From Isoetes taiwanensis (lineage: Eukaryota > Streptophyta > Lycopodiopsida > Isoetales > Isoetaceae): a DNA stretch of 64,000 nucleotides. Below the pieces are notes generated by a model. The model was not told the DNA's origin. It ran no database searches and worked only from the letters and a program-made list of their open reading frames with translations. Of the stretch, positions 2,007 to 49,929 are shown in pieces. The stretch lies in the NCBI GenBank assembly GCA_021234155.1, contig JAJEKV010000017.1, positions 3,268,024-3,332,023 of the forward strand. Reading direction: 5' to 3'. The translations under genes and the position numbers were made by a program. Position 1 is the first letter of the stretch. Every line of letters begins with the position of its first letter.

Positions 2007-2963
2007 TTGTCTTGTCTTGTCCGTCAAAGGTTGGAGCCTGACATGGGATTTGGTCCCAGAAAATTTAGTTACGAACAATTAAGCATTGCTACCAAGAACT
2101 TTAGTCAGCAGGAAAAGGTAGGCCATGCAGGGTATGGAAATGTATACCGTGGTGTTTTGGTAGATTCTGGATCTGTTGTAGCCATAAAATGTGTTTCACA
2201 CGATTTAATAGAGGTTACGCCAGAGCTCCTTGCAGAAATTAACACAATCATCAGCTGCCTACGACATCGTAACCTGATTCAATTACAAGGATGGTAGTTT
2301 TTTCCCAATGGAAGTCTGGACAAAACACTCTTAAAAGCAAGGAAGTACTTCCCTGCTCTCATAGGTTCACTATTGTCAATGGTTTAGCTGCAGCTTTACA
2401 GTACTTGCATGGAGAATTTGTTATTCACAGGAATGTGAAAGCCAGCAATGTAATGCTCGATAACAACTTTAACGCTTGGCTTGGAGACTTTGGAATTTCC
2501 AGATTCATTGAGCAATTTATGAACCCTGGAAATACTATTGTTGCAGGAACATTTGGTTATATTGCTCCTGAAGCAGTGCAAACAGGGAGGTCAACAGACA
2601 AGTCTAATGTGTTCAGCTTTGGAGCGGTGACATTAGAGGTTGTTTGTGGCAGACAAGCATTAAATGATGCATTGCCAGATGATGAGGCTGTTCTGGTGGA
2701 CTGGGTGTGGAACTTGCACAGAAGGGATAAACTTATGGATGCTGCTTGGAAGTGCTTACGACGTTCATGAAATAGAAACCATGTTGCATGTTGGGCTTCT
2801 TTGCTCCAGCCCGGAACCAAGTAGCAGGCCATCAATGCAGCAAGTCATGAAGATATTAGCAGGTGAAATACCTATTCCCCAGCTGCCTGGGAACAAGCCT
2901 TTTTCTGCCTTCACATCAGATATGCCAATCTATACAAGATCTGCTGTCGGAATCCGCAGTTGA
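2007..2963 (+). pseudogene. L-type-lectin-like receptor kinase domain, decayed
   Basis: This is the cytoplasmic kinase domain of a plant receptor kinase of the legume-lectin type, read across three frames. In order it shows FSYEQLSIATKNFS, a glycine loop altered to GHAGYGNVYRG, VAIK, LRHRNLIQLQGW, then PNGSLDK, ALQYLH, a catalytic loop HRNVKASN, LGDFGISR, GTFGYIAPE, VFSFGAVTLEVVCG, and a C-lobe LLCSSPEPSSRPSMQQV. The reading meets TAG directly after LQGW, with the family's hinge segment (usually C..LVYEF) missing. It shifts frame near 2330-2370 and again near 2755. The catalytic HRD aspartate is asparagine. No lectin or membrane segment precedes it. It is a truncated, non-functional copy. Confidence 0.85.
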
Positions 2964-8809: not shown

Positions 8810-11800
8810 GGGCCATGCATGTGGATGTTCATTTCTTCTTTTCGGGGCATTTCGAGGGTCACAAGCTACCATTTGGATGGTATCAGATGCCCGTATCGGA
8901 TAGAACTTGGCTGGGTTGGTCATGGAAGCTTGTCCCTAGGGTAACTTGGATGCTTTGGACTCATGCGCGAAGTTGGAGCCATGTTCCAAGCTACCATCTT
9001 CCCATCATGCCACTATGTCAAGAAGGGGAAAATTTGTGGATTGACACATCCATGCCGTGGATCTCTATTTTTACTTTCCGCAGACATTTAGAGGAACACA
9101 GGCTACCATTCGAATGGCGGAAGTAGAAAATGGAGCAGTTTTGGTCGCTAGAGTAATTTAGATGCTTTGGACTCATGCGCAAAGTCAAAACAACATTCTG
9201 AGCTCGCTAGAGTGGCTGAACTGGGGGATTGTACCCCTATGTGATGCCCCTACATTGGAAAGGGATGAATTTGGGGGGTGCATATCTGTGCACTGGATGT
9301 CCAATTTTATTTTCAGAAACATTTCTTGGTACATGAACTACCTTTGAATGGTAGGATTAGCAAATGGAGCATTTTTTATGCCCTGATACTTAAACCCTAC
9401 TAAATCTATAGGGTTTAGATCTTTACAGCCTTCTCTGCCTCTAAAGTGGTCGAGAGCTTATTGTAGAGTTTCCTCAAGGTTCTGAAGAGAGACCCCAAGA
9501 GAGAGAGAACAAAGAATCTCTTCCTAGGCACCATTTCCAAACTTGCACCGTCGCAATTGCTCGTAACAAGCTGGACATTATGTGACCGGGCATGCCAGAG
9601 GGCACGGCATTATTCGTCGTGCTTCTACGTGGGAAAGGGTGAGCCACCTTTGGACACGTGTTTGAGGAGTAGATAATCGATCAAACCCTGGCTTGCCTAG
9701 TACATGCTATGTTTAAATTAGCGCTCTAGGCAAGAAGTGCATTGAATGAGAGGTCGACTAGTTGCTCATATCATGTAGAGATTAGCTTTATTGGTCATGG
9801 AAGTTGGTCTCTAGAGTAATTTGGATGCTTTGAACTTATATGCAAAGTCAAAACAATATTATGAGCCCGCTAGAGTGGCTGAATTGGGGGACATTGACAT
9901 TTCCCAGTCATGCCCCGACGTCGAAAAGGGAAAAATTTGGGGATCAGCACATCCATGCAGTAGATGTTCATTTTTTCTTTTGGGGGACATTTCATGGGAC
10001 ATGAGCTACCATTTGAATGGGGGATTAGCAGACGAAGCAGTTTTGGTGCCCCGATGCTTAAACCCTATTAAATCTATAGGGTTTATGTTTTGGCAGCCTT
10101 GCCTACCTCTGAAGGGGTGGAAAGTGTGCATGCATAGTCTCTAAAGTAAACAACATGTTTTTTACTCATGCACAAAGTCAAAACTACATTCTGAGCTGCT
10201 AGAGTGGTCGAACTGGATTAACACACCATTATTTGTCGTGCCCCTACATGGAAAAGGGGGGAATCCAGAGGTTGGCACATCGGTGCAGTGGATGTCCAAC
10301 TTTTATTTTCAGATATGTTTCTTGGGACATGGACTCCCATTTGAATGGTGGGATTTGCAATTATGTGGTTTTCATGCTCTGATACTTAAACCCTACTAAA
10401 TCTGTAGGGTTTAGGTTTTGGCAGCCTTCCCTGCCTCTGAAGTGGTCGAGATCTTGCGTGCAAGGTTTCCTCGAGGATCAAGAGAGACCCTAAGAGAGAG
10501 AACGAAAAAACCTCTCCTAGGCACCTGGGATGGCTCGTAACAACTGAACATGGACATAACATTTCGAATGTGTGGTTGCATCCAGACTACCAAAGTTACC
10601 CTTGGACATATGCTTGAGGAGTAGACGATAAATCAAACGCCTGGATTGCCTAGTACATGCCATGTTTAAATTAGCGCTCTAGGCAAGGAGTGCATCGAAT
10701 TAGAGGTTGACTAGTTGCTCATATCGTGTAGAGATTAGTTTTATTGGTCATGGAAGTTAGTCCATAGAGTAATTGGGATGCTTTGAACACATGTGCAAAG
10801 TCGAAACAACATTCTGAGCTCGCTAGAGTGGCTGAACTGTGGGACCATGACATTTTCCCGTCATGCCCCGACGTCGAAAATGGAAAAATTTATACGTATA
10901 GTAGATGTTGATTTTTTCTTTTGAGAATGTTTCATGGGACATGAGCTACCATTTGAATGGTGGGATTAGTAGATGAAGTAGTTTTGGTGCCTCGATACTT
11001 AAACCCTACTAAATCTGTAAGGTTTATGCTTTGTCAGCTTCCCTACCCCTGAAGGGGTCGAAAGCGTGCATGCATAGTCCCTAAAGTAAACTGGATGTTT
11101 TTGACTCATGCACAAAGTCAAAACTGCATTTTGAACTGCTAAAGTGGTCGAACTAGATTAACACACCATTATTCGTCGTGCCCCTACATGGAAAAGGGGG
11201 AAATCCGGAGTTTGGCACATCGGTGCAATGGATATCCAACTTTTACTTTCAGATATGTTTCTTAGGACGTGAACTCCCATTTGTACAGTGGGACTAGCAA
11301 ATGGGATGGTTTTCGTGCCCCGATACTTAAACCCTACTAATGTGTAAGGTTTAGATTTTGGCAGCCTTCCTTGCCTCTAAAGTGGTCGAGAGTTTGCATG
11401 CATAGTCCCTAAAGTCAATTGAATGTTTTTGACTTAGTCACAGAGTCAAAACCGCATTCCAAACTTGCTAGAGTGGTCGAACTGGAGGAACGTGCCACTT
11501 CTTGGTTGTGCCCCCACGTGGGAAAGGGGAAAATTTGGAGGTTGGCACACCCGTGCAGTGGATGTCCATCTTTAATTCTCGGAGATGTTTCTTGGGACAT
11601 GAACTTCCATTTCATCGGTGGGATTAGTAAATTGCGTGGTTTTGATGATGTGATATTTAAACCCTACTAAATCTATAGGATTTAGGTTTTGGCATCCTTT
11701 TTGCCTCTGAAATGTTTGAGAGCTTATGTGCAGAGTTTCTTCAAGGGTCCGAAGAGAGACCTGAAGAGAGAGAAGAAAGAACTCCTTCCTAGGCACCGGT

Positions 11801-12417
11801 TCCAAACTTGTGTCGTTGCAATGGCTCATAACAAGTTAGAAATTGTGGGATCGGGCATGCTAGAAGGCACAACATGACAGTTTGGCTTCATGCTTGCATC
11901 CAGATGGCCAGAGTCACCCTTGAACACATGTTTAGGGAGTAGACAATCGATCAAATGCCTGGCTTGCCTGGTACATGCTATGTTTAGATTAGCGCACTAG
12001 ACAAGGAGTGCATTGCATGAGAGGTCCACTAGTTGCTCATATTGAGTAGAGATTAGCTCTATTAGTCATGGAAGTTGGTCCCTAGAGTAAGTTGGATGCT
12101 TTGAACTCGTGTTTGAAGTCGAAATAGCATTCCGATCTCGCTAGAGTGGTTTAAGTGGGGAACCACGCCATTTCCTCATCGTGCCCCTACATAGGGGCAA
12201 ATTTGGGGCTTGGCACATCCATGCGCTAGTTTTTCATTCTTTATTTTGGGAGACGTTTCATGGAACATGAGATAACATTTGAACGGTGGGATTAGCAGAT
12301 GAAGCTGTTCTGGTGCCCCGATACTAAAACCCTACTAACCTGTAGGGTAGGTTTTGGTAGCCTTCCCTGCCTCAAAAGTGGTCGAGAGTTTGTATGCATA
12401 GTTTTTAAAGTGAATGG
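8810..12417 (+). repeat. Complex satellite array, left half
   Basis: Tandem degenerate units of about 330 bp recur, some with a longer variant insert. Each unit has CTAGAGTGGY(C/T)GAACT, a GTGCCCCTACAT..AAAAGGGG block, GGACATGARCTNCCATTT, and the signature CTTAAACCCTACTAA..TAGGGTTTAGG with GGCAGCCTTCCCTGCCTC. The signature appears near 9400, 10060, 10390, 11000, 11328, 11660 and 12328. Longer units add AAGAGAGACC..CTAGGCACC and CTGGCTTGCCTAGTACATG. Open frames in the array are repeat artefacts, not genes. The array resumes in the same orientation at about 23.83 kb. Confidence 0.85.
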
Positions 12418-12813
12418 TATATCAGTAAGAATTGACTTTCAGATTACTGTGGCTGGTTAACTGGTTGTTGCCTAAAATTCCCTTAAAAAGTCCATTTTTA
12501 AGGTTTGTTCGTGACAGGTGTGACAATTTAGCTAATTTAGGTACCCTTTTTGAGGGGTTGATTGAACATAACTTCTATGCAAAAATATTTAATAGCTATT
12601 TTCATCCTCCTAATTTAGAACAAAAAATAGTTACTTATCTAAATTGTAGCAAAAAAGGGGAAATAAAAAAAATAGCAAGGGTAATAGAGTGACAAAGAAG
12701 TGATATATTCAAGGTTGTGAAAATTTTACAAAATTATGAACAAAATTGTCAAAAATATAGGACATTTTGACAAACCCTCATCACCTGCACTTTTTGTTCT
12801 TTACATGTTCGAG

Positions 12814-14108
12814 TCATCGAACAAACTTACATTTTGCAGCAATATCAGGATGCATGTCATCCTCATACTCATTTAATCCCTGATCACTTGAGCCTTCATC
12901 CGCAGCTTCACTCTCAAAACTGGATGTACTCGAACAATCTTCTTCCTCACTGTCTACAAGTGAGTCTTCGTCATCATCTTTTTTTGCCATCTTTCTAGGT
13001 TGTTTGTCTAATCCACATGCCGACCTTATTAAAGTTTGAGTGACCATACATAACTTATTAGCAGCAGTCAGAACAAAGTCATATGCAAGAACCTTTACTT
13101 CAACTAGATCTATGACATCAGTGTTTGCTTTGGACTTTGCTCTCTTTCCCACTCCTGTTTTTACCATCTCCAAAGTATAACTCACACTGAAGCATTGGCA
13201 GCATTTGTTCTTATCCAGTGCACTTTTAATTGAGTGAAAATTCCATCCTCTCTTGTTACCTCCAGTACTTTAGCTAGCCAGAATAGCTTCTCAGATTCAT
13301 CATTATCAGCTGGGACAACTATGAGCATTCCTTTCTGAATCTCTGAGACTGAACCAGACACTCGAGCAACTTGTTGTGCCGTGCGTCTGGGGCCAGTGTA
13401 CATGACTCTGTGATCTTCATCTGAGCTAGCCATTATCTCTACATGTTCCTCTTGATTCTCAACTTGCACAGGGAGAGTTTGCCTAGATGGCAAGTTGAAT
13501 GTAACTGGCCTTCGACCTTGTAATAAAGCTTGTAACATGTCACGTTGCCGAGAAAAAAACTGAGGCCACCATAAAGCATCTGCCTCCCCAAAGTGGTTAG
13601 AGCATGACTGAATACTTGTTTCAATATAATCCAATGATTTGTTTGAGTCAAATGCTCTTCCCTCCTTTTTACTCTTTGTGATTTCTTTCAAGCTTTTTAA
13701 AGGCATTTGCTCTGCAGAGAGCATAGAAGTAGTATCGGGGATGGTGTGAATGAATTGAATACCAGCTGCTGACTGCCACTGCAAGGATGTGGCGTATTTC
13801 TTTCCTTGTAAGATGGCCTTGCCATCTACAAGTGAGAATTTGATCTGATGCTGAAATGTAATGTTTCTCAAGGGCTCAATTGCACAGCGATCCAATTGAT
13901 CTCTCCAAAAAATCCATTCCTTGAAATCATATGTTTCTTCCAATAGCTCGATGTCTGGACGAGGATTATGGGAATCTTGGATAACCTCAATCATTGCTGG
14001 CAGACTGAGAGCTTTTTTTCGAGCAAGACGTTTAGAAAACCTACTGAACATCTGATCAATTTGATCGTGTGTATGACCAACTAGCAGGAAACCAATCTTC
14101 ACCTTTAG
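12814..14108 (-). pseudogene. DUF7869-like protein, C-terminal part
   Basis: The minus-strand frame beginning at about 14108 reads VKIGFLLVGHTHDQIDQMFS and continues for about 300 residues. The VGHTHxxIDQxFSR motif is the signature of the DUF7869 domain found in many transposon-linked plant and animal proteins. An RNase-H-like transposase fold is my inference. The frame ends near 13182, and an overlapping frame (12814-13185) supplies a lysine-rich segment and an acidic Ser/Asp/Glu tail, so the true protein probably needs a splice or carries a frameshift there. An AG acceptor-like site sits at the upstream edge. The preceding part of the domain is not found next door; the probable N-terminal exon lies at 17.85-18.67 kb. 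Confidence 0.65.
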
Positions 14109-16175
14109 AATACATGTGCGTGGACGGAGAAGGGGTTTTTTTTAAAAAAAAAAGTACGTATACCTACGTTTTGGCGCCCAGGATGTATGGATTTCCACGG
14201 TCCGGGATGGATTTCTTCGAGCTGCTAAGGCGAAAGAATACGTTTTGAGGGCTTTGAATCCGAAGCTTGCTGCTAGAAAAACGTCAAGGGATTTGGTGTT
14301 TCGGAGGTAATGTTTTGAAGTTTTTTCATCCCTAAGAGGCATTTGCAAATGCCCTTGTTGGTGATTTATGCTTAAAACGGCAGGCTGGTGCTTATGTTTG
14401 GATGTGTTGTAACTGATAGTAGCACATGTCTTCTCTGTCTACACTGCACAGGTGCTCAAAATGCTGGGCAGACCTCTGTGGATGCAACAAACGGCATGCT
14501 TGAAAGGTTTCTTTTGCATAAAAATGCAATAGTCGTACATGGCTGATGCCGTAACTGATAGAGGCATATATCTGCTCTGCTTGAACTGCTCAAGTTGGTG
14601 GTGTTTTGATCATGAGTTCTTATTCATATGTCGAGAATGCCAGGCTCAAATATTTGCACTGCCAGAACGACTCATGATTGGAAGTTTAAACCTCAGCTTC
14701 AATACTCAGGTTCGTTTTCATCATTTTTCAGTGAAAATGGTGGTGTTAATACAGGTTAATGAGATATATTGCAGAGATATAGATCTGTCTAAGAAGTTAG
14801 ATCTAGAATACTATGAAATAGAACATGAAAACATCTCTCCTTTTTCCTGATTTCTTCATTTGATATCTAGGTACACAGACCTCATGGCTACATGAATATA
14901 CAAGTATTCTGCATATGCGACAATCAGACGAACTAGAAGATGATAAGGCTTGAGTTGGCTGCTATAATGAAGTTCTAAGTATGGAAGGTTTCACAAAGCA
15001 AGATCTTTTAAATCTTAACAGTGAAGGTCGTTGTCTTGTAACTGATCATGGAGCTTTTGGTAAGCATAAACAAATCTTTCTTTATGCATGCATTGATACA
15101 GAAAGAACTTAAAACAGCTTTGGGGAACATATTATATTACACAGTATATTATGTTTATGCACTTCTAGATCTACTCCAAAAACCATTTTAATAAATGTTT
15201 GCGTTTAATCTAAGACGCAGAAACCATCAGGAAGCTTAGCTTAAGTCTGGAATTTGGTATCTACTTTTTGTGCAGGTACATCCATATTCATGTTCGTGGA
15301 CATTATGCATTAGAATCCAGCTTGGTTCCAGAGAATGATGCAGCTGATGGCTTCATCAAGGCCTTGGGACTTGCATGGCAAGAGTTTGGAAATGAAAGGC
15401 AAGGATTTGATATTGCATGAGTTTACTGATTGTTGGTTCTTAGGTATATGATATACTTTTCGATTTAACAAATGCAAAAGGGAGGAAAATTCGAGAGGTA
15501 GGCTAGATGGTTCTTTTCTGGTTATAGACACGGCATCCAGAAATAATTGATTTATGTTTGATTGCTTTGTTTAGGGTGCAAACTGCTTACTATCATTGCT
15601 CCCAACACATCCAATTATTCTGAAAGAATTTCAGGTAAACATATTAGCATTACTACTATTTTGACTTAAATTTGTCATTATTACTTTAGTATTTATCACA
15701 AGGGTATCAGAACTTGCAAGACTTGAAGAGGGGACCCAACTTCTTGCTAGAAGATTTGCAACGGAATCACATCTTATATACATTTTACAGGTTATCACCC
15801 ATCCATAATCGAGTCTTGGTAATAACAAAGAATCGCCTCTCTAACAATACCCATAGAACTTCGACTTTGGAAATCTAAATTGGGAAGGATCTGTGTAGGT
15901 AATTAATGGCCTGCTAATGCTAGTAAATCAAGCGTGAGAGTCTCCCCCATCATTTCCATGAGGAATTTCTTAAGTTTGGTGGTTTCCAAGAAGTTATGGG
16001 GTGGTAATGTTTTGGTATATGTGATCTATATACAAGGATTGATATAACATAATATTTGAGTTGTTGCGGGCACTTAATGAATCTCTTCGAACCGAAAAAA
16101 TCTTAGTGGGAGTTGATGACCGGATAAAGCATGGCAAGTTATATGAGTGCATTAAGGATTATGAAGTTCTTGGTA
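14109..16175 (+). pseudogene. Exon-like fragments of host genes, one resembling APE2
   Basis: Several plus-strand protein-like stretches have plausible splice borders. About 14150-14310 reads VWISTVRDGFLRAAKAKEYV. About 14972-15059 reads MEGFTKQDLLNLNSEGRCLV then TDHGAF before GTAAGC, close to the endonuclease region of plant AP endonuclease 2 (EGRCVxTDHGxF). 15575-15634 reads CLLSLLPTHPIILKEFQ before GTAAAC. 15703-15790 reads VSELARLEEGTQLLARRF before GTTATC. About 16085-16171 reads EKILVGVDDRIKHGKLY before GTAGG. Frames do not chain into one recognisable gene. They may be captured fragments of two or more genes sitting inside the DUF7869 gene's gap. Only the APE2-like piece has a family guess. 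Confidence 0.4.
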
Positions 16176-17715
16176 GGTTAGGCTTTTAATGTTCTCTATG
16201 TGCTTGCCTAAGTGCAAGTTTAAAATGTTTGTTCTATTGGCAAGTGCAGTTTAGAAAGACCTCATGAATCCCCAAAGCACCACACTCTTGGCGGGTAATG
16301 TTTATGTTTCAATTGTTTTGATTTATGAACGAATGCTAAGTTGTTCCTTTAATGCCTAGCGAAATTCATCTTGATGTCCGATAATTGAAATTAGGAAGGA
16401 TGCCAAAGAATGAATCTTTTCAAAAAATCCTATTATGTCACCGAAAAATGGCTTGGAATGGTGTCGACCATCCGGACAAAAGGTATGGGGTCCTTGGGTG
16501 GTCGCTTGTTTTAGGCATTGTCGAGAACATGGGCCAATTTTGCGTAATGGCAACAATGTGGAAGAAGTTGTGATGAGGGAAGTTGTTGCGACTTTTGAAA
16601 CGGCTTTGAAACGGCTTACTTGGGCATGTGCTCTTAAGCAGATATCTTCTTTTGGAAGCGCACATTTGGCAGAAAACCAGGCAGGGGTTAGCCCACGTTC
16701 TACAGTGGTCAGCGTTAATGGTCTTTGAACCTTTTGTGTGCTGAGGCATGCTGAAGTTTACGAAACATTAGAGCTTATTACGGCAAAAGGAAGGAGCTTC
16801 CATATTTGTTAATGTTCTTGCAGCTCATTGTTTGTGCACCATGTAAATGCATGTTGTAGTTTCCATTATGTAGTATACAATAGCAATGCTCGGTTATGGG
16901 CCAGAGGATAAAACAAGAATTGATATTTGTGGGAAGATATTTGTGTTCGACAGTGCACCCATTTTGGCAGTTCACAATCCTATCCCTATAGATCAAAGGT
17001 AAGGTTTTATGAAGGCCTTGTATTTCCACATCCTTTGTATTGCAGATAAACTTAAACCATGGGATTAATCTTATATTGTGTCCCCTTAAACTTGCACCTA
17101 TATAGAATCACTAGCGAACAAGATATTGCCAAATAATGGAAGGTCTAGAGGATAGAACGTAGAAAGGAAGGTCCAAATCTATCAAAAAGGTTAGAATATA
17201 TCTAAAATGTTAGAACACGATTGCAACTCTACCCTGAATTTGCACAACGTAAGAAATGTTTCTATCACAAAATGCCAAAGGGAAAATTTGACACATGGGA
17301 AGTGTCAATTTTGACACATGGGAAGTGTCAAATTTGTGCTTTTGTACAAGGCTTTGACGTTCCTATGCCAATTTTCCCATCATGCTTTGTGTTTGCCTCC
17401 TCAAATATTCGAGAAAGGATAAACATTATGTGCGATGTTTGGACTTGACTAGAGCAAAAAGAATGGACTTGGGGAAACATTATAAACCTTTAGAAGATTA
17501 AATAACATTGTAGATAGATAGGCCATCTTGCCTTGCTGTCAACGAGCTCTACAGGCGCTCTACAATCACAATGAAATCCCAAGCGTGCAATTTGGGAGGT
17601 AAATGTAAGGTAGAGGGTAGGCTACATAAATAAATACTGGACGTAAAAATAAGGTTAAGGGTAGGGTAAATTGTGCTTAGACTCGGTGTAAAAATATGGA
17701 ATCGGGTATTCTGCT
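16176..17715. other. Mostly unassigned sequence within the inserted block
   Basis: No convincing gene. A frame at 16435-16728 has some protein-like segments (VWGPWVVACFRHC) but no family match. At 17288-17333 there is a tandem near-duplicate of TTGACACATGGGAAGTGTCAA, itself an inverted repeat. The remainder is AT-rich. Confidence 0.4.
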
Positions 17716-17853
17716 TCGACAACACAAGACTGTATATATAGGGGTTTCTATGGCGAGCTGTATACATAGGGGTTTCTCCCGACTTGATGCACGCACATGC
17801 CATATACCCCTAACATAGAGGTGAACCCCCCCGGGGTCGTGTTGTCTAGCTGA
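17716..17853 (+). mobile_element. Short inverted-repeat element end, related to the MITE at 39.6 kb
   Basis: The segment is bounded by GACAACACAAGAC on the left and, inverted, GTCGTGTTGTC on the right. It contains TATATATAGGGGTTTC, GCACGCACATGCCATAT and GAGGTGAACCCCCCCGGGG. These match the right part of the MITE at 39632-39870 (TATATAGGGGTGTTTC, GCACGCAGGTGGCATAT, AGGTGAATCCCCCGGG). It truncates the proline-rich reading frame of the minus-strand gene. Confidence 0.5.
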
Positions 17854-18672
17854 AGATATAGAACCGGTGGTATATGTTCTAGATTGGAACCTCAATTCCT
17901 TTAGTCCAATCTTAAGCAAACAACGTTGAGAACAGTGCTTTGTATGTGTTGCCCTCAAGTGAGCCTCGTCCATAAGTTTCTTTCTTCTTTGGGATGTACA
18001 TGCTTTCTTGTGTAAGTTTCGCTTAAGGTTTTTACTTGCAGGAGCTTTGAATTCGAACATAGAGTCTTGTGGCTTTGGTAGGTCCTCGTCTGAGAGATCA
18101 ACATGAGGTGTTTCTTCGTCTGACACGAGAGCAACAGATGGTGTACTAGTAGATGCTGAGAGGTTTGGAGTGGGCAAGTCCTGGGGGGAGGTGCTTTCCC
18201 TCTCTCTGGGAAAAAGTAATCGAGGTTGGTGACGTAGTTGACAAGCTCTTGAAGTGTCGTAGAACACAGAAGTTGCATGGCGCTGATTGCTCCCACTTGT
18301 TGTAGTACCAATTAACGAAATGGATGGACTTGGTGTGATTTGCCTCCGGGGAGGCAGTCTACGGTGGACTATGGGAGACGTACTAAAATGAACTGGAGGA
18401 GGGAGTCTGAGCTCTGTAGCTTGTGGTGGAGTAAAATGCATAGGTGGGGGCAAACGACGTTCAGGAGCAGGGTGTGGTGGAGTAAATTGAACTGGTGGTG
18501 GAAACCGAGGTGGTCGTGGTGGAGTAAATTGAACTGGGCTGGGGCTTTGAATATCGGAGGCAGAAGTTTCGTGGCTACTTCCTGGGGTCAGTTGAGGAGG
18601 TGTGAAAGTCATCGGAGGAGGAAGCCTGCGAGCAGGAGAGGGAGGCTATGCAGCTCTTTTCTCTCGAGCCAT
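17840..18672 (-). pseudogene. Proline-rich N-terminal exon of the DUF7869-like gene
   Basis: The minus strand starts with ATG at 18672 (MAREKRAA), meets TAG at codon 9, and stays in frame with the long open frame from 18612. That frame has four to five degenerate LPPPVxFTPP repeats, a Ser/Thr-rich region, an acidic patch (SDEETPHVDLSDEDLPK), a basic stretch and a Cys/His segment (HTKHCSQRCLLKIG) followed by KELRFQSRTYTTGS. The Cys/His segment resembles the N-terminal region that precedes DUF7869 in related proteins, so I infer this is the first exon of the same gene as 12814-14108. Its 3' side is cut by the repeat at about 17.85 kb. It is divergent from the methyltransferase gene, with 351 bp between the two ATGs. 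Confidence 0.5.
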
Positions 18673-19023
18673 ACTGAGAAAATTAGCGTCACACTGTATA
18701 AATTTATACGACAGAAGAGCAGACGGTATAAATTTATACAGAGATGGTATGTATAAATTTATACAGGGATGGTATAAATTTATACAGAGAACGGCAACTT
18801 AGAACACAAACAGTATAAATTTATACGAAAATTCACAGATACTTGTATGGGACACTTTATGGAGAACCGCTATACGAAAAGGCTCTGAGCAGAGCTACTT
18901 AAGCCGGGCGCCGGTCGTTCTATTTTCTCCATACGCTATTCGGAGTCGAATCCGCTCGCGCTGCGCCTTATATACCCCCTCTAATTTGCTCTCACGAACA
19001 GCTATAAGCGGATCCATACGGTC
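18673..19023. promoter_or_regulatory. Bidirectional promoter region with palindrome operators
   Basis: This 351-bp gap separates the ATG of the minus-strand proline-rich gene (18672) from the ATG of the ParB-methyltransferase gene (19024). It contains five copies of GTATAAATTTATAC (18696-18826), a GC-rich stretch at about 18900-18965, and a TATA box (CTTATATACC, about 18967-18976) some 50 bp before the plus-strand ATG. The palindromes lie nearer the minus-strand gene. Control of both genes by a palindrome-binding protein is inference. Confidence 0.55.
18696..18826. repeat. Palindrome cluster 1 (5 copies of GTATAAATTTATAC)
   Basis: Perfect 14-bp palindromes start at 18696, 18726, 18751, 18772 and 18813. 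Spacing is irregular here (21-41 bp), unlike the phased intron clusters. Confidence 0.95.
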
Positions 19024-22000
19024 ATGGCCACGTAAGTCTCTAATCCGTACTATTCTAGTTTCACATCTCTTTTAATCTGTTGAGTCTAAGGTCCTTCTGT
19101 ATAAATTTATACCGAAAGTGTTCTGGAACGGTATAAATTTATACGCTCCGAGCACGAGCGGTATAAATTTATACCGTTGCAGAACACTTGCGGTATAAAT
19201 TTATACGCCTCGAGCACGAGCGGTATAAATTTATATCGTTCCAGAACACATTCGGTATAAATTTATACCGCAAGTGTTCTGGAACGGTATAAATTTATAT
19301 GGCGTATAAATTTATACCACAAGTGTTCTGCAACGGTATAAATTTATACCGCTCGTGCTCGGAGCATATAAATTTATACCATTCCAGAGCACTTTCGGTA
19401 TAAATTTATACAGAAGGAGAACAATGTCGTTTTAACAAAAACTTTGTAACCACTTGCGGTATAAATTTATACGAGAAGACAACATCCGTGGTTTAAATTC
19501 TCGTGAAGTGTCGAGTGTCTAAAAAAAGGTCTTGAACCGTAGTAGTTGAGTAATAATGTTGTGTTTTACCGTCAATTGACACAAATAAAGGGTTAAAATA
19601 GCGTGCATTTTAGGTCCTTTAAGCCACTTTTCTTACAGTTAAAGTGTTTAAAATAGTGGAGAAAAACTGTATTTCTGATGTAAAAATGGGTTTTTTTTGC
19701 GTCTTTTCAGCCCCAAGGTCACGTTCACACAGAGAGGCCAATCATCAAAGGCAAAACAAGCAGAGCCACAGCCGCAGCCACAGACATATGAACTGAGAGA
19801 TCAGACGTGGTACGTACACAGGGGAGCGAGAGAGCGCAAACCCACTGAGGCATACCTTTATTTGTGTTATCAGTCAGGGCGGGGAAAGTGGAAGTCGGAT
19901 GATTACTACCCCGCCGGTGAAATGATAAGCCTCACTGCAACAGAAAATGAAGATGAGATTCTTATGAAGTGCCTAAATGACGACGGGGACGTCTACTACA
20001 TTCTGAATAGTAGAATGCTTCCTATAAGCATGTGCAAACCTAAAGACGTCCATGATTACATGGCGGAAAATTATAAGAATGGCTATGTAAGTAGGTCTTA
20101 GTGTCTTCACGTATAAATTTATACCGAATGTCTTCCTAATTTACCCTGCATTACAGGACATAGTGGACATTTTGTCCTCAGTAATACATTGTGAACAAAA
20201 GGAGATGGTCAAAGGTCTTTGGTACCCCATTCCTAAAGAAGATGTCGAGAAGGAAGAGGAATCGGAAGAAGAAGAGTCAGAGGAGGAACCGGTGGTGACA
20301 AGAGGGAAGAGCAAGAGAGTAGCATTGGTAGTAGATACCCAGCCTCCCACCAAAAGAAGGTCAAGAACCACAAAGGCCTTGACCATAGAGGAGTCAGCAG
20401 AAGCTCTTCAAAAGGCTCCTGGAGCAGACATTGTTGTGTGGCCCTCATACAAGTCAAGTGCTATTTTAAAGAGGGTTAACGAGAGCAAACTCCTCAAGCA
20501 AACCATCTCTTTGACACTGAGCACGATTAAGAGGCCACCAAACAATGAAAATGGGGTCAGAGTGCTTCAGGTCCGAAAGCTGTACGCGGCACATGTGGCT
20601 ATCCTCAAGCAAAGAATGAGAAGGAATTCTCATGCCCATGTGTCACCACTAGTTGTGATGGTAGACAGAAGTCAGTGCAACCAATTAAAAGACTACAAAA
20701 AGGCAGACTTCGAAGATTACACCTATTATGTTCTTGGAGGCACACATAGTTATAAAGCAAGAAAAGAACTTTCAAAAGACGAAAGCCGTAAAGAAGTCTG
20801 GAAGAGCGTGGAAGCACATATCTACGTTGGGGTGACAGACGAAGAAGCAAAGGTCATTGCCGTGAGTCATAATCTCGACAATGACTTCAGATTAAAAATG
20901 AGCCTGATAGACAAGATCCGCTTTATGCACCGAGAGTACGTGGAGTTTAAACAAGTGCATGGAGATGACTTTAAAAAGCAAAAGAACAACCTCCAAGAGC
21001 TTCGAGAAGCTTGCGTCACAGAGTGCTGCCTTAGTTATGATTCCGATAAGAAGCCTATAATGGCTGTAAAGCAGTACGACAATTACTTCCAGCTTGCCTT
21101 CCGAGATGGTCAAGTAAGTTAAACTTTTAATTATCTTTTAGTAGTATGTTTAGTGTGAAGTGAACTGTGCACTGGCCTCAAACTGTATAAATTTATACCA
21201 ACCTTGACAGCAGGGCTCGGTTCAATATTTATACCCTGCCTTGGCACGGTATTAGTCACGGTATAATAAGGCACTGTATAAATTTATACCGTGCCTTGGC
21301 TTGGTATAAATTTATACCGTGCCTTGGCACTGTATAAATTTATACCGTGACTTGGCTCGGTATAAATTTATACCGAGCCCTGCTTTCAAGGTTAGGCTCT
21401 CAAGTTATGCTACTAACACTAAATAATTTGACTTCGACCATAAACAGGTTTGGGATCTTCAAGAATTTTTTTTTTGCATGTTCGAGGATGGTGAGCTTAA
21501 AGAACAAGCTAGCTCCACTGGAAAAAAACCAAAAAAAAAATATTGAAGGAAAACAGAAAACATGAGCATCGTACCCTAGACTCAGCTACAGGGACTGAAA
21601 AGCAAAGAAAGTTTTGTACGTCTCCTGGAGAAGGTTGTGGCCAAGGAATTTACTCTAGAAGAAATGGCCAAGGAAGCTAAGACGTAAGTCTCATGTACTT
21701 TCTTTAATTCCTCACTTCGTCTTACAACCTTTTTTCTCCTTGCAGTCAGAAAGACATTGTCACCTGCCAAGCCGAGTTAATGAAGCAACTAAACTTAGAA
21801 GACTGGGAGGAGTGCAAGCTTCTTTACCCAACTTGTACGACAGACAGTGTAATTAGAGAGCATGCAGTTAACTTCAGTGGCTGGGTAAGTTTTGCAGAAA
21901 ATATGTTTTCTCTTTGTGCCTTTGTCTTACTATTCTCTTACAGAACAAGAAGAAAGGGCTACCAGCAGGCTTTTTGAACCTGGTTCGTAGGGCCAAAGAG

Positions 22001-23340
22001 GAAAGGCAGAGACTTAAGGCCATTGAACAGGGAAAAGAAGTCGGCCCCAGCACTTTTGACACTAGCTATGAAAGATTTACAATGTTTGATCAGGATTGCT
22101 TGTACAAGGTCGTTCAGGGTGATTGCACTAAGCTGGGGACACTTTTGGACAAGCAAAATTTTACTTTGTGCATAGCAGATATTCCATACGGCTTTAAAAT
22201 TAAGGATAGCGCCTTCGATGATGAAGCCTTCACGCACGTGCAAGTCCGTGCTTTTTTGGATGGGCTGAAGGATGTCACGATATCTGCAAACTGGAGGGTT
22301 ATCATTTTTCATTCCGACCTGCAGACGATGTCGGTGCTTAAACCTCTGGGAGCGGTCTGCAACGCCGGCTTCGAAAACTGCGTTTGGTAAGCTTCATGTT
22401 TATTGCTTTTCTATTTACTGTAACTCCACGGTATAAATTTATACCTCAGTTGCCTTAAGGTATAAATTTATACGACTGGAGCAACCGTGGTATAAATTTA
22501 TACAGCAAGGCAACCTTCGTATAAATTCATACGGCATGGCACCGTGGTATAAATTTATACAGCAAGCCAACCGTGGTATAAATTTATACCGCCACACCAC
22601 TGGGCTAACTTATTTTCATTGTTTTCTTTCTACTAAATTTTAATTGTTGTATTGTTTGGCAGGCTAAAAACGAACGTCAAGGGACATGGTGGTGGTCCAC
22701 GCTTAGTGAGCTGTTTTGAGCATTTCCATATAGGTTTTTACAGCGCAGACGCCAAAAAAACCATGGCTCATTTCAATACGCAGAATGAGAAGACTCCTCC
22801 CTGCAATGCTTTTCAGTACCCGGCTATTCTGCAAAAGTTAAGAGACCCAAGCGCTGTTGTGTCCCATTATCAGAAGCCACAGAGGCTTATTAATAACTTA
22901 ATACAGTGGTTTTCTCGCCCAGGCGACTGGATTTTGGATGCTTTTTCCGGAACAGGCACCACAACAATTTGCGCCCTTAAGCAGGGGCGCAATGTTGTCT
23001 CTGTCGACATAGACCCAGATAAAATAAGTTTCATCAGGACCAGGATAAGCTCTTGTGAATCCTTTCCGATGAAAACGAGGAACTGGGAGCAAAGAACGGT
23101 GTTGGCGATGTTAAAGGCACTTATACAGAAATCCAGCCTCCTATTACAGGGAGAAAAGATGAGGAGGTGGAGTTTGTCGACCTGGAGCCCTCTGGAGCTC
23201 AGGTTGAAGAAACGCTGCGCCAAATGGGATTGGAATCACAAGCGGCGTCTCGTACTGTTGTGTCCTTGCAAGAGCCGGATCCTAAGGGTAACCTTTTCCT
23301 CCTTGGACCGGGAAGAGCCACCTCCCCTTCGCACCATTGA
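19024..23340 (+). CDS. ParB-like domain / beta-class DNA methyltransferase fusion, 8 exons
   Basis: Predicted role: sequence-specific DNA binding plus N4-cytosine or N6-adenine methylation. Exons: 19024-19031, 19711-20086, 20157-21113, 21448-21490, about 21580-21683, 21746-21884, 21944-22386, 22663-23340; introns are GT..AG. Protein is about 915 aa. Near residues 157-173 there is an acidic run, then a basic KRRSRTTK. At about 258-395 lies a ParB/Srx-like domain (SPLVVMVD, YYVLGGTHSYKARKEL, AHIYVGVTDEEAKVIAVSHN). At about 540-840 is a methyltransferase with motif IV ADIPYGF (about 622) before motif I LDAFSGTGTTT (about 782) and VSVDIDPDK, the beta-class order. Bacterial and phage ParB-methyltransferases have this architecture, but here it is intron-rich. 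Defects: exon 4 fits exon 5 only if a 10-T run is 9 T, and the last exon shifts frame near 23050-23070. So it is recently decayed or misassembled. Confidence 0.8.
19093..19417. repeat. Intron-1 palindrome array, itself a larger inverted repeat
   Basis: Copies of GTATAAATTTATAC start at 19099, 19131, 19161, 19193, 19223, 19255, 19287, 19304, 19336, 19366 and 19398, with three one-base variants (19223, 19287, 19366). Steps are 30-32 bp except one of 17. Spacers alternate between two types, AAGTGTTCTGGAAC and CTCCGAGCACGAGC, and invert past the centre. The whole 325-bp array therefore reads as an imperfect palindrome centred near 19255, with CCTTCT at its left edge and AGAAGG at its right. A further copy lies at 19459. 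Confidence 0.95.
19459..19472. repeat. Single palindrome GTATAAATTTATAC in intron 1
   Basis: Perfect 14-mer outside the phased array but still inside intron 1. Confidence 0.95.
20111..20124. repeat. Single palindrome in intron 2
   Basis: Perfect GTATAAATTTATAC in the 70-bp intron between 20087 and 20156. Confidence 0.95.
21185..21393. repeat. Intron-3 palindrome array
   Basis: Perfect copies start at 21185, 21276, 21304, 21332 and 21360, the last four exactly 28 bp apart. Decayed copies lie at about 21222-21266. The flanks CCTTGACAGCAGGGCTCGG and CCGAGCCCTGCTTTCAAGG are inverted relatives, so this array too is a larger inverted repeat. Confidence 0.93.
22431..22589. repeat. Intron-7 palindrome array
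   Basis: Copies start at 22431, 22460, 22490, 22519 (one-base variant), 22547 and 22576. Spacing is 28-30 bp. The array fills the intron between the exon carrying methyltransferase motif IV and the exon carrying motif I. Confidence 0.93.
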
Positions 23341-23830
23341 AATAGCATTATAATTATTTGAATGTGTGAGAGCCTCTACTTTCATTCTAAACTATGTGCT
23401 AAGAATTATAATATATATTTATGAAAAATTTTAAACTGAAAGCTTTGTGTCTACAACAATGCTTAATTAGAACAACTCTTTCTTGCTCCATGATTTCACA
23501 CTCTTTGTCTTTTATATGTTTGATTTTAGTAGTACTTATATTAAGCGTGCAAAAAGAAAAAATATATTTCCTTCTATTTTCAACAATAAATACTTATTGA
23601 GTTTTCAAAACTTATGTTTCTCTCCTTAAAACAAGCATTTTTTTTTTGCCCTCTTTTAAAAATGAAAAAGCTTCAAAAATGTTACTTTTTTAGGGATATT
23701 CCGAACGCTAAGTGCTCAACAATCTATTTTGCTCCCTATTTTGTCTGTTTTTTTTCAAGTTTTCAATTTTTATAAAGGAATCTTTCAAACGCACTTCTTA
23801 AATAAGTGCGTTTCATTTTAAATCTTGTTT
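23341..23830. other. AT-rich right end of the inserted block, with a hairpin
   Basis: This is the 3' flank of the methyltransferase gene and is rich in A/T runs. Close to the junction with the satellite is a clean stem-loop, AAACGCACTT (23787-23796), a 7-base loop, then AAGTGCGTTT (23804-23813). It may be the element's terminal hairpin or a transcription end signal; neither is shown. Confidence 0.5.
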
Positions 23831-25890
23831 AACACGTCATTTCTTCGTCGTGCCCCTATGTAGAAAAGGGAAAATTTAGGACTTGGCACATCCGTATGGT
23901 AGATGTTCATTTTTTCTTTTGAGAGAAGTTTCATGGGACATGAGCTACAATTTGAATGGTGGGATTAGCAGATGAAGTTGTTTTGGTGCCCCAATACTTA
24001 AACCCTACTAATGTGTAGGGTTTAAGTTCTGGCAGCGTTCCTTGCCTCTAAAGTGGTCGAGAGTTTGCATGCATAACCTCTAAAGTCAATTGAATGTTTT
24101 TGACTCAGTCACATAGTCAAAACCGCATTCCAAACTTGCTAGAGTGGTCGAACTGGAGGAACATGCCATTTCTTCATTGTGCCCCTACATGGAAAAGGGG
24201 GGAATTCGGAGCTTGGCACACCCGTGCAACGGATGTCCATCTTTAATTATCGGAGATGTTTCTTGGGACATGAACTTCCATTTCATTGGTGGGATTAGCA
24301 AATTGCGCGATTTTGATGCTTTGATATTTAAACCCTACTAAATCTATAGGGTTTAGGTTTTGGCAGCCTTTTTTTTCCTCTGAAATGGTCGAGAGCTTAC
24401 GTGCAGAGTTTCTTCAAGGGTCCGAAGAGAGACCTGAAGCGAGAGAAGAAAGAACCCCTTCCTAGGCACTGGTTCCAAACTTGTGTCGTTGCAATGGCTT
24501 GTAACAAGCTAGACATTATGCGACCAGGCATGTTAGAAGGAATGAAGGAAGGAAGTATATTTTAACGTCCACGGAGGCCAAATAACATCGATAAGCATTT
24601 TCAGCCCATCGCCATCTGGGGGGCTCGAACCTCTGACCACAAGGTTAAGAGCCTTGTGCTCTACCAACTAAGAGGCACGACATGACAATTTGGATCCATG
24701 CTTGCATCCAGACGGCCAGAGTAGTCCTTGAACACATGTTTAGGGAGTAGACAATCAATCAAATGCCTGGCTTGCCTGGTACATGCTATGTTTAGATTAG
24801 CACACTGGACAAGGAGTGCATTGCATGAGAGGTCCACTAGTTGCTCATATTGAGTAGAGATTAGCTCCATTGATCATGGAAGTTGGTGCCTAGAGTAACT
24901 TGGATGCGTTGAACTCGTGTTCGAAGTCGAAATAGTATTCCGATCTCGATAGAGTGGCTGAAGTTGGGAACCACGTCATTTCCTCATCGTGCCCCTATGT
25001 CGAAAAGGGGCAAATTTGGGGCTTGGAACATACGTGTGATAGATGTTCATTTTTTATTTTAGGAGAGGTTTCATGGGAGAAGTAACATTTGAATGGTGGA
25101 ATTAGCAGATGAAGTTGTTTTGGTGCCCGGATACTAAAACCCTGCGAACATGTAGAGTTTAGGTTTTGGCAGCCTTCCCTGCCTCTAAAGTGGTCGAAAG
25201 TTTGCATGCATAGTTTTTAAAGTGAATTGGATGTTTTTGACTCATGCACAGAGTCAAAACCGCATTCCGAGCTTGGTAGAGTGGCCGAACTGGAGGAACA
25301 CATCATTTCTTCTCCGTGCCCCTATGTAGAAAAGGGAAAATTTGGGATTTGACACATCTGTATGGTAGATGTTCATTTTTTTCTTTTGAGAGACCTTTCA
25401 TGGGACATGAGCTACCATTTGGACGGTGGAATTAACAGATGAAGTTGTTTTGGTGCCCCAATACTTAAACCTACTAATGTGTAGGGTTTATGTTTTGGCA
25501 ACCTTCCTTGCCTCTAAAGTGGTCGAGAGTTTGCATGCATAGTCCCTAAAGTCAATTGAATGTTTCTTACTCAGTCACAGAGTCAAAACCGCATTCCAAA
25601 CTTGCTAGAGTGGTCGAACTGGGGGAACATACCATTTCTTCATTGTGCCCCTACGTGGGAAAGGGGGGAATCCAGAGGTTGGCACACCCGTGCAGTGGAT
25701 GTCCATCTTTAATTCTCGAAGATGTTTCCTGGGACATGAACTTCCATTTCATCGGTGGGATTAGCAAATTGCGTGGTTTTGATGCTGTGATATTTAAACT
25801 CTACTAAATTTATAGGGTTTAGGTTTTGACAACATTTTTGCCTCTGAAATGGTCGAGAGCTTACATGCAGAGTTTCTTCAAGGATCCGAA
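23831..25890 (+). repeat. Complex satellite array, right half
   Basis: Same units and orientation as 8810-12417. The TTAAACCCTACTAA..TAGGGTTTA signature recurs near 24000, 24331, 25137, 25467 and 25797. The array ends in the middle of an AAGAGAG block near 25890. One unit carries a SINE insertion (24541-24675). Confidence 0.85.
24541..24675 (-). mobile_element. tRNA-Lys(CUU)-derived SINE
   Basis: Read on the minus strand, the head is a tRNA-Lys relative: TTAGTTGGTAGAGCACAAGG, the anticodon loop CTCTTAA (CUU), and the B box GGTTCGAGCCC. The first ten or so tRNA bases are missing. The tail reads TTGGCCTCCGTGGACGTTAA, then AATATACTTCCTTCCTTC. That tail is shared with the 3' ends of the LINEs at 27.1 and 54.8 kb. 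The matching satellite unit near 11850 lacks the insert (CTAGAAGGCACAACATGAC), giving the empty site. Confidence 0.88.
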
Positions 25891-26480
25891 GAGAGCCCAT
25901 TTGAAGTGTCTATTTTTGCTAGGGCTCCCCTATGTACTGGATGATCCATTGGTAAAAATCTTTCATGGATCCTCGTATATATGTTTCTTCAATGAACCAG
26001 AGTATCTTGATGTGATTTGGTCACCACAACATATGCAAGCATATTGACCTTTAGTTTGTAGACCTATAGGTGTAAAAACAATTTGTATTATCGATGCAAT
26101 TTTCATATAAAAAATGCCCTCAAAATAAATAAAAACAACAAGAAGATACCGTTACGTATGCTAAGACCAGGATAGTCATGCATTGTCTACATTAATATAG
26201 CTTTCAGTGCAAATCTTTGCTCTCTAGATATTCTCTTAGAGATATCTACCATGGGAACACCACTCCATAGAGTTTTCAAGTCGTCAATTAAGGGTGATAT
26301 CAAAATTTTCAGGTTGTGAAGGGCCTGCAATATCAAGACTCAACATGATTAAAGACTCCCACTACACTTTATATAAAAAAAAAAGTATTCCTAATAGGAC
26401 TGAATTGTACAAACCTGGAATTATCATGCTCAAGATGATATGACCCCGCTTGATGGACTCATATGGAGGGATGTTGTAGT
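25891..26480. other. No recognisable gene
   Basis: AT-rich transition between the satellite and the CACTA fragment, possibly non-coding CACTA sequence. No family recognised. Confidence 0.4.
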
Positions 26481-26957
26481 TTACAAGCATGACTGGCCAT
26501 GTGGACCACGAGGCTGTCCGTTGCAAAAAAAAAGATTGAAACCATCTGTTGTGAGACCAAAGTGAATATTTCTTGGTTCATTTTGAAATTCGGGCCATCT
26601 GCTATTTATAAATCTCCATGCCTCTGAATCAGCGGGAATGCGCATAACTCCATCAGAACTACATTTATTTACATGCCAACCCATCAAGGCAGCAATCTCC
26701 TTTGTCCTAAACATATGTTTAAGTCTAGGAATTATAGGAAAATACCGCAATATCTTGCATGGAATGGTCGAGCCTTGGACATCTTTACGGTACCTCGACT
26801 CGTTACGTTTAGGACAATAAACCATATCCTTGGTGTCCTTATAATATAAGGTACACTCATTTGGACATACATGGATATTCTCATACTCAAAACCAAGCGC
26901 CTTTATGAGCTTACGTGCTTCAGAACGACTAGAAGGAACCTTGTTTTCAGGAGGCAA
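26481..26957 (-). pseudogene. CACTA (En/Spm) TNP2 transposase fragment
   Basis: The 158-residue frame carries TNP2-family hallmarks in order: HVCPNECTLYYKD, CPKRNESRYRKD, IPCKILRYFPIIPRLKHMFR, MGWHVNK, DGVMRIPADSEAW, WPEFQNEPRNIHFGLTTDGF. These match the N-terminal zinc-binding and early catalytic part of plant CACTA transposases. The rest of the transposase and any terminus are absent nearby; a LINE 3' end begins at about 27122. The encoded fragment cannot be an active transposase. Confidence 0.88.
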
Positions 26958-27322
26958 TATTTTACAAATAAGTCTGCATACACAAATATATGATGATTAA
27001 GCCAACAAAGATAAACAATAAATTTTCATATGTTCGAGAATTAAGAGTTAGTAAGGGAAGGAAGAATCTTAATATTGCATCGACTGCAACATTTGATATC
27101 TTATATTGCCCTTGCAAGTTGAGTAAGGAAGGAAGTATATTTTAACGTCCACGAAGGCCAACTGGCCTATGAGACGGTGATTACAATATAGCGGAAAGTT
27201 TCCAAACACAAAAGAAAACCACAGAAACCTTGTACAATGTGTCTCTACCACTGGGATGAAAAAACCCCCCATGTGGGAGGAAAAACCCTTGTAGTAGGCG
27301 TTGAGAGGCCCTATCTGGGCGC

Positions 27323-29600
27323 TCAAATTCCCTGTGCTGTGAAGGACTCCCTGAAGGTGGAGACTTGCAAAATGTAGGACGCGAGACGTGCAACCATTGG
27401 CGAAGCCAGCAGTTGATGAATTGCTATCTCAGAGCATCTGAGATCGGCGTGAGCTGCTCGGATGTGTGCATATGTTTGGGCATTCTCAGAGAGCATGGTG
27501 TTCATCTTCTACTATCCGCATGTGACAAAGACCGCATAATCTCTCTCATCTTTGGGGATTCCCTACCCTCCATTTGTACCCCCAAATGTCTCAATTTCGA
27601 GATGGTGGGACCACCCGTCCCTTATTGCAGCTATAGCTCTCCATTTCTTGGTAGAGATTTGTGCCTTCAAATACTGGTGGGGCCATGTTCAAGCTGACAT
27701 TAACATGCGTGTGGTAGTGCTCTGTTTTGGGCTTTGCAAGAGGGCGATCCCACGAGAGGCAAAGAAAGCGCCATTGAAATCGCTCCCCGCTCCGCGTATC
27801 CGACATATCCATAATGTGTTGATAGTCTATGGACCATCTTGCGAACCATCCCTACAATGCTCCCGCCACACTCTCTTCTTAGGACGCTGTGGCCCTTGTG
27901 CCAATAATGTGAGCCGGGGAGGAAGACGCGTTGTGTATCCATTCTCATCAACCTTATGGAAATATGCAAGGTGCTGCGCAAGATAGCGTAATGCCGCAGG
28001 GCCAAAAGCCGCCTCATACAAAGAAAAAAATCGGATAAGGCACCGTGTCCTTGACGCCTAGGGTCAGATGTCGAAAAGCCTTCTATACCCTCTCTAGCTT
28101 ATCCCAAGTACCCTTGCTAACCGGGCCCCCCCTACCTCTACCCCATACAAAGAATACGGGTTCCACGAAGTGCTCGTAATGTGTGCTTTTTTATGCATGC
28201 CCAATCGCAGAGATCTATTCTGTAACAGCTATTCTGCATTGCATACATGGCTTTCCATCCCGCGCTGACCCTTCTTTCTACATAGTCATCCCATAGCATG
28301 TTAGCAGAGAAATCGATTCCCAGATACTTAAAGGTCCTTACAACTTCCATCCTTTGTCCTATGTAATAGAAGTCTGGGATATCATGCTGCACAGACAGGA
28401 TTGGCAACAACTTGGTTTTCTGCTGGTTGACTGTCATTCTTGCTATGTCACAGAATTGACTGAGAGCATCCAAATGTTCCTGTATACTCCTAGCTGTATG
28501 GGACAATAAGCCCAGATCGTTTGCATAGAGCAACTGTTCTACTGTATATGCCTCTGGCAACTGTGGGCCACCACCTCCATGTTCTTGCATCCAGGTCTCC
28601 AACTTGTCAATGTAGAGTCCAAAAAGCATTGGAGATAACGGGCATCCCTGTTTAACACCTATGGTGCTGTTCACCCGGTGGTCTGACGCAGGCAAAGTGG
28701 CATATATTCTGTCATAGAGCCGGTAGATGGCATTCTGCAAATCCTGTGGGACATGTAGCTCCTGCAAGCGTTGCCACAACAGGTCCCGAGGGGCCGTATC
28801 ATATGCCGTCTTAAAATCCACGAAACATCAATACAAGTCACGTCGTGCATTGCGACTAGCTTTCATAAGGATTTTGAGAGTAAAAATATGATCACTCGTG
28901 GAGTGGGCAGGGTGGAAACCTGCCTGGCCAACTGCATGTACCCCAGTTTCCTCCGCCCATTGTGTTAACTTCTTCTCCAGCACACCTGCTAGAAGTTTTG
29001 CAAGTAACGGGCTCACCATGATCATATGGTAGTTGGTGGAGTCATCCCTGCTTCCCGTCTTATGAATAGCGGTGACCTTCCTAACCATCCATTCCTGCGG
29101 GAGGCCCTCTCTGATGGCCTGATTGATTATCCCTGTCAAAGGCCCGAGCAAAGCTGGCTCACCCCATTTCAACAGCTCGGCCTGAAGTCCCTGCAAGTCC
29201 TTTGCTTTACCATTAGCAAGATGCCTAAGACGTTGGTGGATGTCCTCCTCTGAAAGCTGTAGTGTTTCTCCTAGCTGGTCTGGTATGTCAGCGATTGCTC
29301 CTAGGGGGTCATACAACTCCTCCAACCGCTGTCTCCACTGGTCTAAGGTAATATTGCCAGGTGGTTGATGCCTCTTATACAGCACTCTACGCCAAAAGGC
29401 TTTTGGCTCAGTCATAAACATGCGTTGCTGATTTTCTGCAATGTAGCGATGCTTTTTGGATTTCAATAATGCCTTATAGTCCCTAATGGCCTGTTGCCGG
29501 AGCTGTGGATCTAAGATGGTGCGTAGCTGACTCTTTAGAGCCTTACATTCAGCGTCAAACTAGGGGTTTTGAGGGAATTGCGCAGTGTCCCTTCGCGGAG
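27323..29600 (-). pseudogene. LINE A reverse transcriptase and C-terminal region
   Basis: From 29466 the frame reads LRHLANGKAKDLQGLQAELL, LPQEWMVRKVTAIHKTGSRD, VHAVGQAGFHPAHSTSDHIF, then from 28821 DFKTAYDTAPRDLLWQRLQE, VKQGCPLSPMLFGLYID, and LLYANDLGLL. The catalytic box is YAND instead of YADD, losing one of the two metal-binding aspartates. An in-frame stop separates 28828 from 28821. Further down, AQHLAYFHKVDENG and HQLLASPMVA match LINE B. Confidence 0.85.
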
Positions 29601-49131: not shown

Positions 49132-49929
49132 TTCTTCGCGACTCTGTGAACTCTCTCTCTCTCTCTCTCTCTGTGAAATGAAGCGTGACCAAATTTATAC
49201 CTTTCGTAAGTTGTTGACGTTTCTGTCCGTTGGATGTTGGCACGATCCCAAAGCAAACAACGCGAGCCGTTGATGCACAAACACAATCTCAAACGCTAAA
49301 AGATGCCAACTCAGCATCCTCTGCCCATTAGATTTACAAGGATATGCTGACTGGGACTTTGTGGGTGTATCTAAATAGTATCTGAGAGGAAAGAGCTAAA
49401 ATAACGTAATAAACGCTTGGTAGAGTCAAATTTAGCCTAGATTATATCACAATCACTTGCATAGTGGTGCCGCTGTCGCTATCCTCTGTTATGAGCACCA
49501 AGAGTTCCTCTACTCTGCAGAAACCCTGCGAAAAGAATTTTCATTTTTACTGGAGCAATCATGTTTTTTATTGCTATAGATGTTTCTATTTCTTGGAGCC
49601 ATAGCTCGAAAGAAACCTTACCCACTGCTGAATCCAGCAACAAACTCTGCCAGGGCTCCGCAAGAAACTGCGCCATAGGCCGAGCCAACAATTTCTATTT
49701 GAAATGTCATGTATCATAATCTGAACCAAGTGTTCCATAAGTCACCGGCTAGGCAACATTGCACCCCATAGGGCGTCAAGGCAGCCCGTCAAAGCCCTAT
49801 GTTGCTCTACCGGTGAATTACTTAGTACATAAACTGGATTTTTCTTATTTTGTTAAGCTTTGTCAAGTTCAAGTGCATTCATGTTCTAGAAATGTTGTGC
49901 TTTGTCATCACACCTTGACAGTATGGCAT
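49132..49929. other. Kinase upstream region, otherwise unassigned
   Basis: Directly upstream (49153-49174) is a CT microsatellite, common in plant core promoters and leaders. Nothing further is recognised. Confidence 0.4.

Follow-up and report, generated by a model that had tools for sequence, protein, structure and literature searches.

ParB-methyltransferase genes have been reported in transposons of brown, green, and red algae (PMC12477816). In the Ectocarpus DNA transposon Sola1-1_Ec32, one accessory protein carries ParB-like and N4C/N6A methyltransferase domains, and its gene and that of the transposase lie on opposite strands (PMC12477816). Self-marking has already been guessed for the algal proteins; the available part of that report names no target site. 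Phages encode similar fusions of a ParB domain (PF02195) and an N6_N4 methyltransferase domain (PF01555). A survey of the ParB fold found these methyltransferase fusions in phages, and the words "plant" and "transpos-" are absent from its main text (PMC12704722). Arabidopsis VANDAL elements encode VANC proteins, which bind a short word densely repeated in the introns and other non-coding DNA of these same elements, so that DNA methylation is lost from them (PMC5735166). Marchantia DN4MT1 (PMC8566409, PMC12344493) and rotifer N4CMT (PMC8885841) are eukaryotic amino-methyltransferases of bacterial origin and are described with host functions.

We analyzed a 64,000-nucleotide stretch of the Isoetes taiwanensis genome (the window). 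A preliminary description had found an intron-rich gene joining a ParB-like stretch to a bacterial-type methyltransferase and had placed it inside a mobile or viral element. It had also held that no use of N4C enzymes by plants is known. That was wrong, since Marchantia DN4MT1 makes 4mC (PMC8566409), and the fusion cannot be called unknown in plants because algal transposons carry it. The ParB-methyltransferase fusion is not new to eukaryotes. The Isoetes element shares its domain combination and divergent gene arrangement with Sola1-1_Ec32. It differs in that its host is a vascular plant and its length is about 8.7 kb (parts of different copies summed) rather than 21.5 kb, and in the documentation given here of its copy number, selection, and palindrome arrays. 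The Isoetes enzyme is transposon borne, unlike DN4MT1 and N4CMT. The literature searched (titles and abstract starts; most subscription papers lay outside) showed neither a land-plant example nor a palindrome array in elements of this type. As far as these searches reach, the vascular-plant host, the copy number, the selection, and a candidate DNA address are new. We think it fairly probable that the transposon-borne, selected ParB-like/methyltransferase protein binds palindromes and marks its own element against silencing, in a manner resembling VANC.

The accessory gene belongs to a multicopy DNA transposon with terminal inverted repeats. The parts of the window copy are as follows.

12468-14105, minus strand: 3' portion of the transposase-like gene, including DUF7869 (PF25273), plus the left region of the element; the left terminal repeat is missing.
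14106-17887: foreign segment; it takes the place of some 1 kb of transposase-like gene sequence.
17888-18671, minus strand: 5' region of the divergent transposase-like gene, proline rich and cut off at 17888.
19024-23340, plus strand: ParB-like/N6-N4 methyltransferase accessory gene, with seven exons in the family model.
19024-19031 (inferred), 19711-20086, 20157-21113, 21448-21683, 21746-21884, 21944-22386, and 22663-23340, plus strand: exons of the accessory gene.
20517-21113, plus strand: ParB-like stretch with the GGTHSYKAR box; weak matches, and conservation within exon 3 is highest here.
21944-23056, plus strand: predicted beta-class amino-methyltransferase, with motif IV DIPYGF (exon 21944-22386) followed by motif I FSGTGT (exon from 22663).
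23787-23829: right end of the transposon with the terminal inverted repeat.

The mobile setting proposed earlier is borne out by terminal inverted repeats, 4-bp target duplications, and at least 125 candidate copies. The right end lies at window position 23829. In the search that located it, 39 non-self matches stopped at query positions 189 to 198, with 22 of these at 190. The left ends of four other copies begin with AACAAAGTTTAAA, which repeats the right end in inverted orientation. The terminal inverted repeats are 30 bp long, and 29 of 30 positions are identical across the compared stretch. Thirteen copies were examined for their ends, and both ends were located in six. Five of the six have 4-bp target duplications (CAAG, GGGT, TAAG, ACCT, and ATAA); C1052 has none. 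The Sola superfamily makes 4-bp target duplications, and the element agrees with it in this. A Helitron, suggested by a hairpin near the right end, was rejected on the matching left repeats and the target duplications. The element is flanked by a satellite array whose units measure about 330 bp (window positions 9141-12415 and 23829-25898). By eye, about 75 bp of the satellite unit are missing across the insertion.

The ParB-like exon was found in at least 125 scored candidates (129 matches), from 3,512 candidates at first look. The methyltransferase exon gave at least 150 matches from 150 scored of 2,416 candidates. Both counts are minima, and each counts the window copy. The divergent gene on the opposite strand is proline rich at its start and carries DUF7869, with an E value of 4.1e-46 in copy L066 and 1.2e-22 in the window. 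It is probably the transposase, judged by its place and its domain. A literature search found no paper with the word DUF7869.

The window copy of the transposon is broken, and its left terminal repeat is lost. A search for terminal repeats within the window alone found none for this reason. Position 17888 was considered as the left end, where 38 of 39 other full matches start and one starts two bases in. It was rejected as such, as all 18 copies compared (of the 39) share the sequence upstream, with 14 to 15 of the nearest 15 bases. The window copy diverges from all 18 at this position. Since the other copies continue upstream, 17888 is the point at which the window copy is interrupted; the segment 14106-17887 is therefore foreign, and the transposase-like gene has lost about 1 kb. 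An imperfect inverted repeat is visible by eye at the end of the foreign segment, at about 17695-17860. The proline-rich start of the transposase-like gene meets a stop after eight codons in the window copy.

Other repeats and genes occur in the window. A fragment matching Transposase_21 (tnp2, PF02992, E value of 2.8e-11) at 26481-26996 on the minus strand is a CACTA-like relic. Reverse-transcriptase-like open frames at 28138-29559 (minus strand), 53028-54074 (plus strand), and 58657-61581 (plus strand) look by eye like LINE relics. Protein-kinase-like open frames at 48262-49194 (minus strand) and 2273-2770 (plus strand), also recognized by eye, are probably host genes or fragments.

The accessory gene contains the peptides quoted in the preliminary description, in the order given there. 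Its multi-exon GT..AG structure holds at exon 3 across the family, with a GT donor in 30 of 30 loci and an AG acceptor in 27 of 30 at the matched boundary (window copy included). In place of the eight junctions predicted earlier, the family model gives seven exons and six introns. Exon 4 is a single exon (21448-21683) that is open in 15 of 29 other loci, 2 of which had no exon-4 start found. A direct junction from exon 3 to 21592 was rejected on these grounds. The accessory gene of the window copy is therefore degenerate: its exon 4 contains two stops, and the frame breaks near 23057. Exon 3 is free of stops in 24 of the 30 best loci.

The protein is under purifying selection, which is strong in exons 3 and 6. 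Exon 3 has a mean dN of 0.051, a dS of 0.609, and a dN/dS of 0.083 (30 loci, window copy included); the loci are the best protein matches, and dN is biased somewhat downwards because they were chosen by protein similarity. The dN/dS is 0.25 in the first 100 alignment columns and 0.02 to 0.03 in columns 160 to 332, where the ParB-like box falls. Exon 6 has a dN/dS of 0.077 in 19 of 20 loci, with one of different length dropped.

The methyltransferase half belongs to a family that is mainly prokaryotic. The spliced protein matches PF01555 with an E value of 6.4e-14 and 52.9 bits (cut-off of 26.7), as the earlier assignment to the beta class predicted. Motif IV (DIPYGF) precedes motif I (FSGTGT), which is the beta-class order. 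DIPYGF is retained in 19 of 20 loci, and the remaining locus has DILYGF. The catalytic motif reads DIPY, with I in the second position, and departs from the canonical DPPY and SPPY. Methyltransferase activity is not assured for this reason. DPPY is the motif of bacterial N6A enzymes, and SPPY is that of most N4C enzymes (PMC8885841). The product is more likely to be 6mA than 4mC, judged from the initial D of motif IV.

The methyltransferase query matched 1,315 phage records at an E value of 0.1 or less, and 85 of these covered at least 80% of the query. The full-length matches have about 23 to 26% identity (40 of the 85 listed), and one short match has 41.7% identity over 60 residues. A profile of the methyltransferase part of phage and viral relatives matched the window protein with a probability of 98.3. 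It drew on up to 83 relatives, of which 4 were phage proteins and 79 were frames from 80 viral contigs; gappy rows were dropped. The plant protein resembles the phage fusions in its domain order and its beta-class motif order; it differs from them in this low identity and in its ParB-like region, which does not match PF02195. The viral half of the earlier claim gained no support, as two scans of viral contigs with the window proteins found no relatives. An ancient capture followed by intron gain is compatible with these results.

The ParB-like half is the less secure part of the earlier assignment. A Pfam search of the plant region gave no match to PF02195 (ParB N-terminal domain), and no ParB model matched in an NCBIfam search. 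What speaks for the assignment is a set of weak PHROG matches and a profile alignment. Of 18 copies, 15 to 17 weakly matched three PHROGs, each named ParB-like, with a best E value of 0.001. They include phrog_1033 (best E value of 0.001, 15 of 18 copies) and phrog_723 (E value of 0.01). The best Pfam match of the region was PF24077, below the cut-off in all 18 copies (E values of 0.001 to 0.005). A PDB search found nothing of weight, and its best match was an unrelated enzyme (E value of 0.66). No DNA-binding domain was recognized in the region.

The profile alignment places GGTHSYKAR on the phage ParB box, upstream of the methyltransferase as in phage. Against four phage fusion proteins, hhalign gave a P value of 0.0011 and a probability of 21%. 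Of these four, one scored above the PF02195 cut-off itself and one fell just short. The match was weaker against a larger phage set, with a P value of 0.0075 and a probability of 5%. With that set, reversal of one side gave P values of 0.48 and 0.48, and comparison with the methyltransferase part gave 0.30. Reversal of both sides, which mirrors the real comparison, gave 0.014. These weak matches suggest that 20517-21113 is ParB-like, and we do not file it as a member of the ParB family.

The preliminary description overlooked the divergent transposase-like gene, the transposon ends, and arrays of a 14-bp palindrome, GTATAAATTTATAC. The window contains 25 exact and 4 one-mismatch copies between 18696 and 22589. 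The chance expectation for the whole window, allowing up to two mismatches, is 0.31, and the only match elsewhere in the window has two mismatches. All 29 palindromes are non-coding and lie between the divergent genes or in introns 1, 2, 3, and 6, as follows.

18696-18826: five copies of the palindrome between the two divergent genes.
19099-19472: array of 12 palindromes (9 exact) in intron 1.
20111-20124: lone palindrome within intron 2; other copies share its position.
21185-21373: array of five palindromes in intron 3.
22431-22589: array of six palindromes (5 exact) in intron 6.

The assembly contains 12,556 exact sites of GTATAAATTTATAC versus 17 for a reversed control word, counted over 1,658,258,908 bases in 1,110 contigs, with sites inside and outside elements included. 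The palindrome is present in all 30 exon-3 loci, with 3 to 25 exact copies per approximately 4 kb. It occurs inside exon 3 in none of them. Of the 362 spacings below 200 bp, 184 are 28 to 32 bp. Five of five divergent copies, with 73 to 76% protein identity, keep the identical word exactly, 10 to 20 times each. These arrays resemble those of VANC, where a transposon-encoded protein is likewise paired with arrays of one word that lie in non-coding DNA of the same family and vary by tandem repetition. The Isoetes protein differs in that it includes a methyl-adding enzyme and in that its anti-silencing role is putative. The VANC domains DUF1985 and DUF287 are absent from the Pfam matches of the Isoetes element.

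The palindromes could instead be cis sites for the transposase or a cofactor, used in cutting or in the pairing of ends like subterminal repeats elsewhere, and the methyltransferase would then have a separate purpose. We regard this as unlikely, though it is the strongest of the alternatives. A 2.2-kb derivative (L010:147-2349) fits such a role. It has both ends, the duplication ATTT, and six palindromes but no intact genes; of the coding sequence, only 26 residues left from exon 2 are clearly matched. Its retained palindromes count for the self-recognition reading as well. If it moved in its present form, it was served in trans. The arrays of the window copy fit less well, as they lie in the middle of the element, in introns and between genes, and do not adjoin the terminal repeats.

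A second alternative is that the protein represses its own element by binding and methylating palindromes in the promoter and introns, which would limit copy number. A high density of palindromes in the intergenic stretch and in intron 1 would suit repression, as would selection on the protein. Against this, the copy number is high, and self-limitation would be harder to sustain by selection on individual copies. We consider self-repression improbable.

The palindromes might also be selfish or structural tandem repeats that multiply through slippage and conversion, with no protein binding them. The number and place of arrays do differ among copies, and adjacent units share spacer sequence. One array with decayed copies (L008:1441-1663) lies outside any recognized element, and no element genes or ends were found within 3 kb of it. 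It is either a relic or part of a second palindrome-bearing family. Exact copies nonetheless far outnumber one-mismatch copies (489 versus 101 in the 30 loci), even beside decayed coding exons. The intron-2 site provides a comparison free of motif-based choosing, because it is solitary and positionally orthologous. Its palindrome columns are 95.4% conserved, compared with 82.6% in 40 further columns of the intron (31 sequences, excluding L120 and three loci whose exon start is shifted). At this site, 26 of the 31 sequences have an exact palindrome within 80 bases before the exon. Spread as repeats alone is very doubtful given these two results.

Bacterial contamination or misassembly, an objection raised in the preliminary description, could draw on the phage matches to the methyltransferase but has a negligible probability and was rejected, given the introns, the copies across many contigs of one plant assembly, their differing flanks with target duplications, and the lack of a close phage or viral match.

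As we read the combined evidence, the protein likely serves to recognize its own element and to mark it against silencing. The element would have spread in the lycophyte genome, with its protein kept by selection. The ParB-like part would bind the arrays of 14-bp palindromes in the non-coding DNA of the element itself. Because the assignment of this part is weak, with no DNA-binding domain recognized, the transposase or a host factor might be the reader instead, and the palindromes at L008, outside any recognized element, also speak against so simple a scheme. The methyltransferase would place methyl groups on exocyclic amines on or around the element. This mark may label the element as self and leave it expressible or mobile despite host silencing. 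A more specific version is tentative. A putative nucleotide-switched ParB-like clamp might load at the palindromes as parS-like sites, and the methyltransferase might write a non-5mC self-tag, also in trans on deletion derivatives, that host 5mC silencing does not read.

The guess of self-marking is directly testable here, because the family is large and selected and has a candidate 14-bp DNA address. The Isoetes taiwanensis genome was sequenced with Nanopore, and 6mA and 4mC can be called on element copies in the long reads. If the proposed self-marking is true, a mobile element would supply plants with bacterial-type DNA marks that lie outside the 5mC system.
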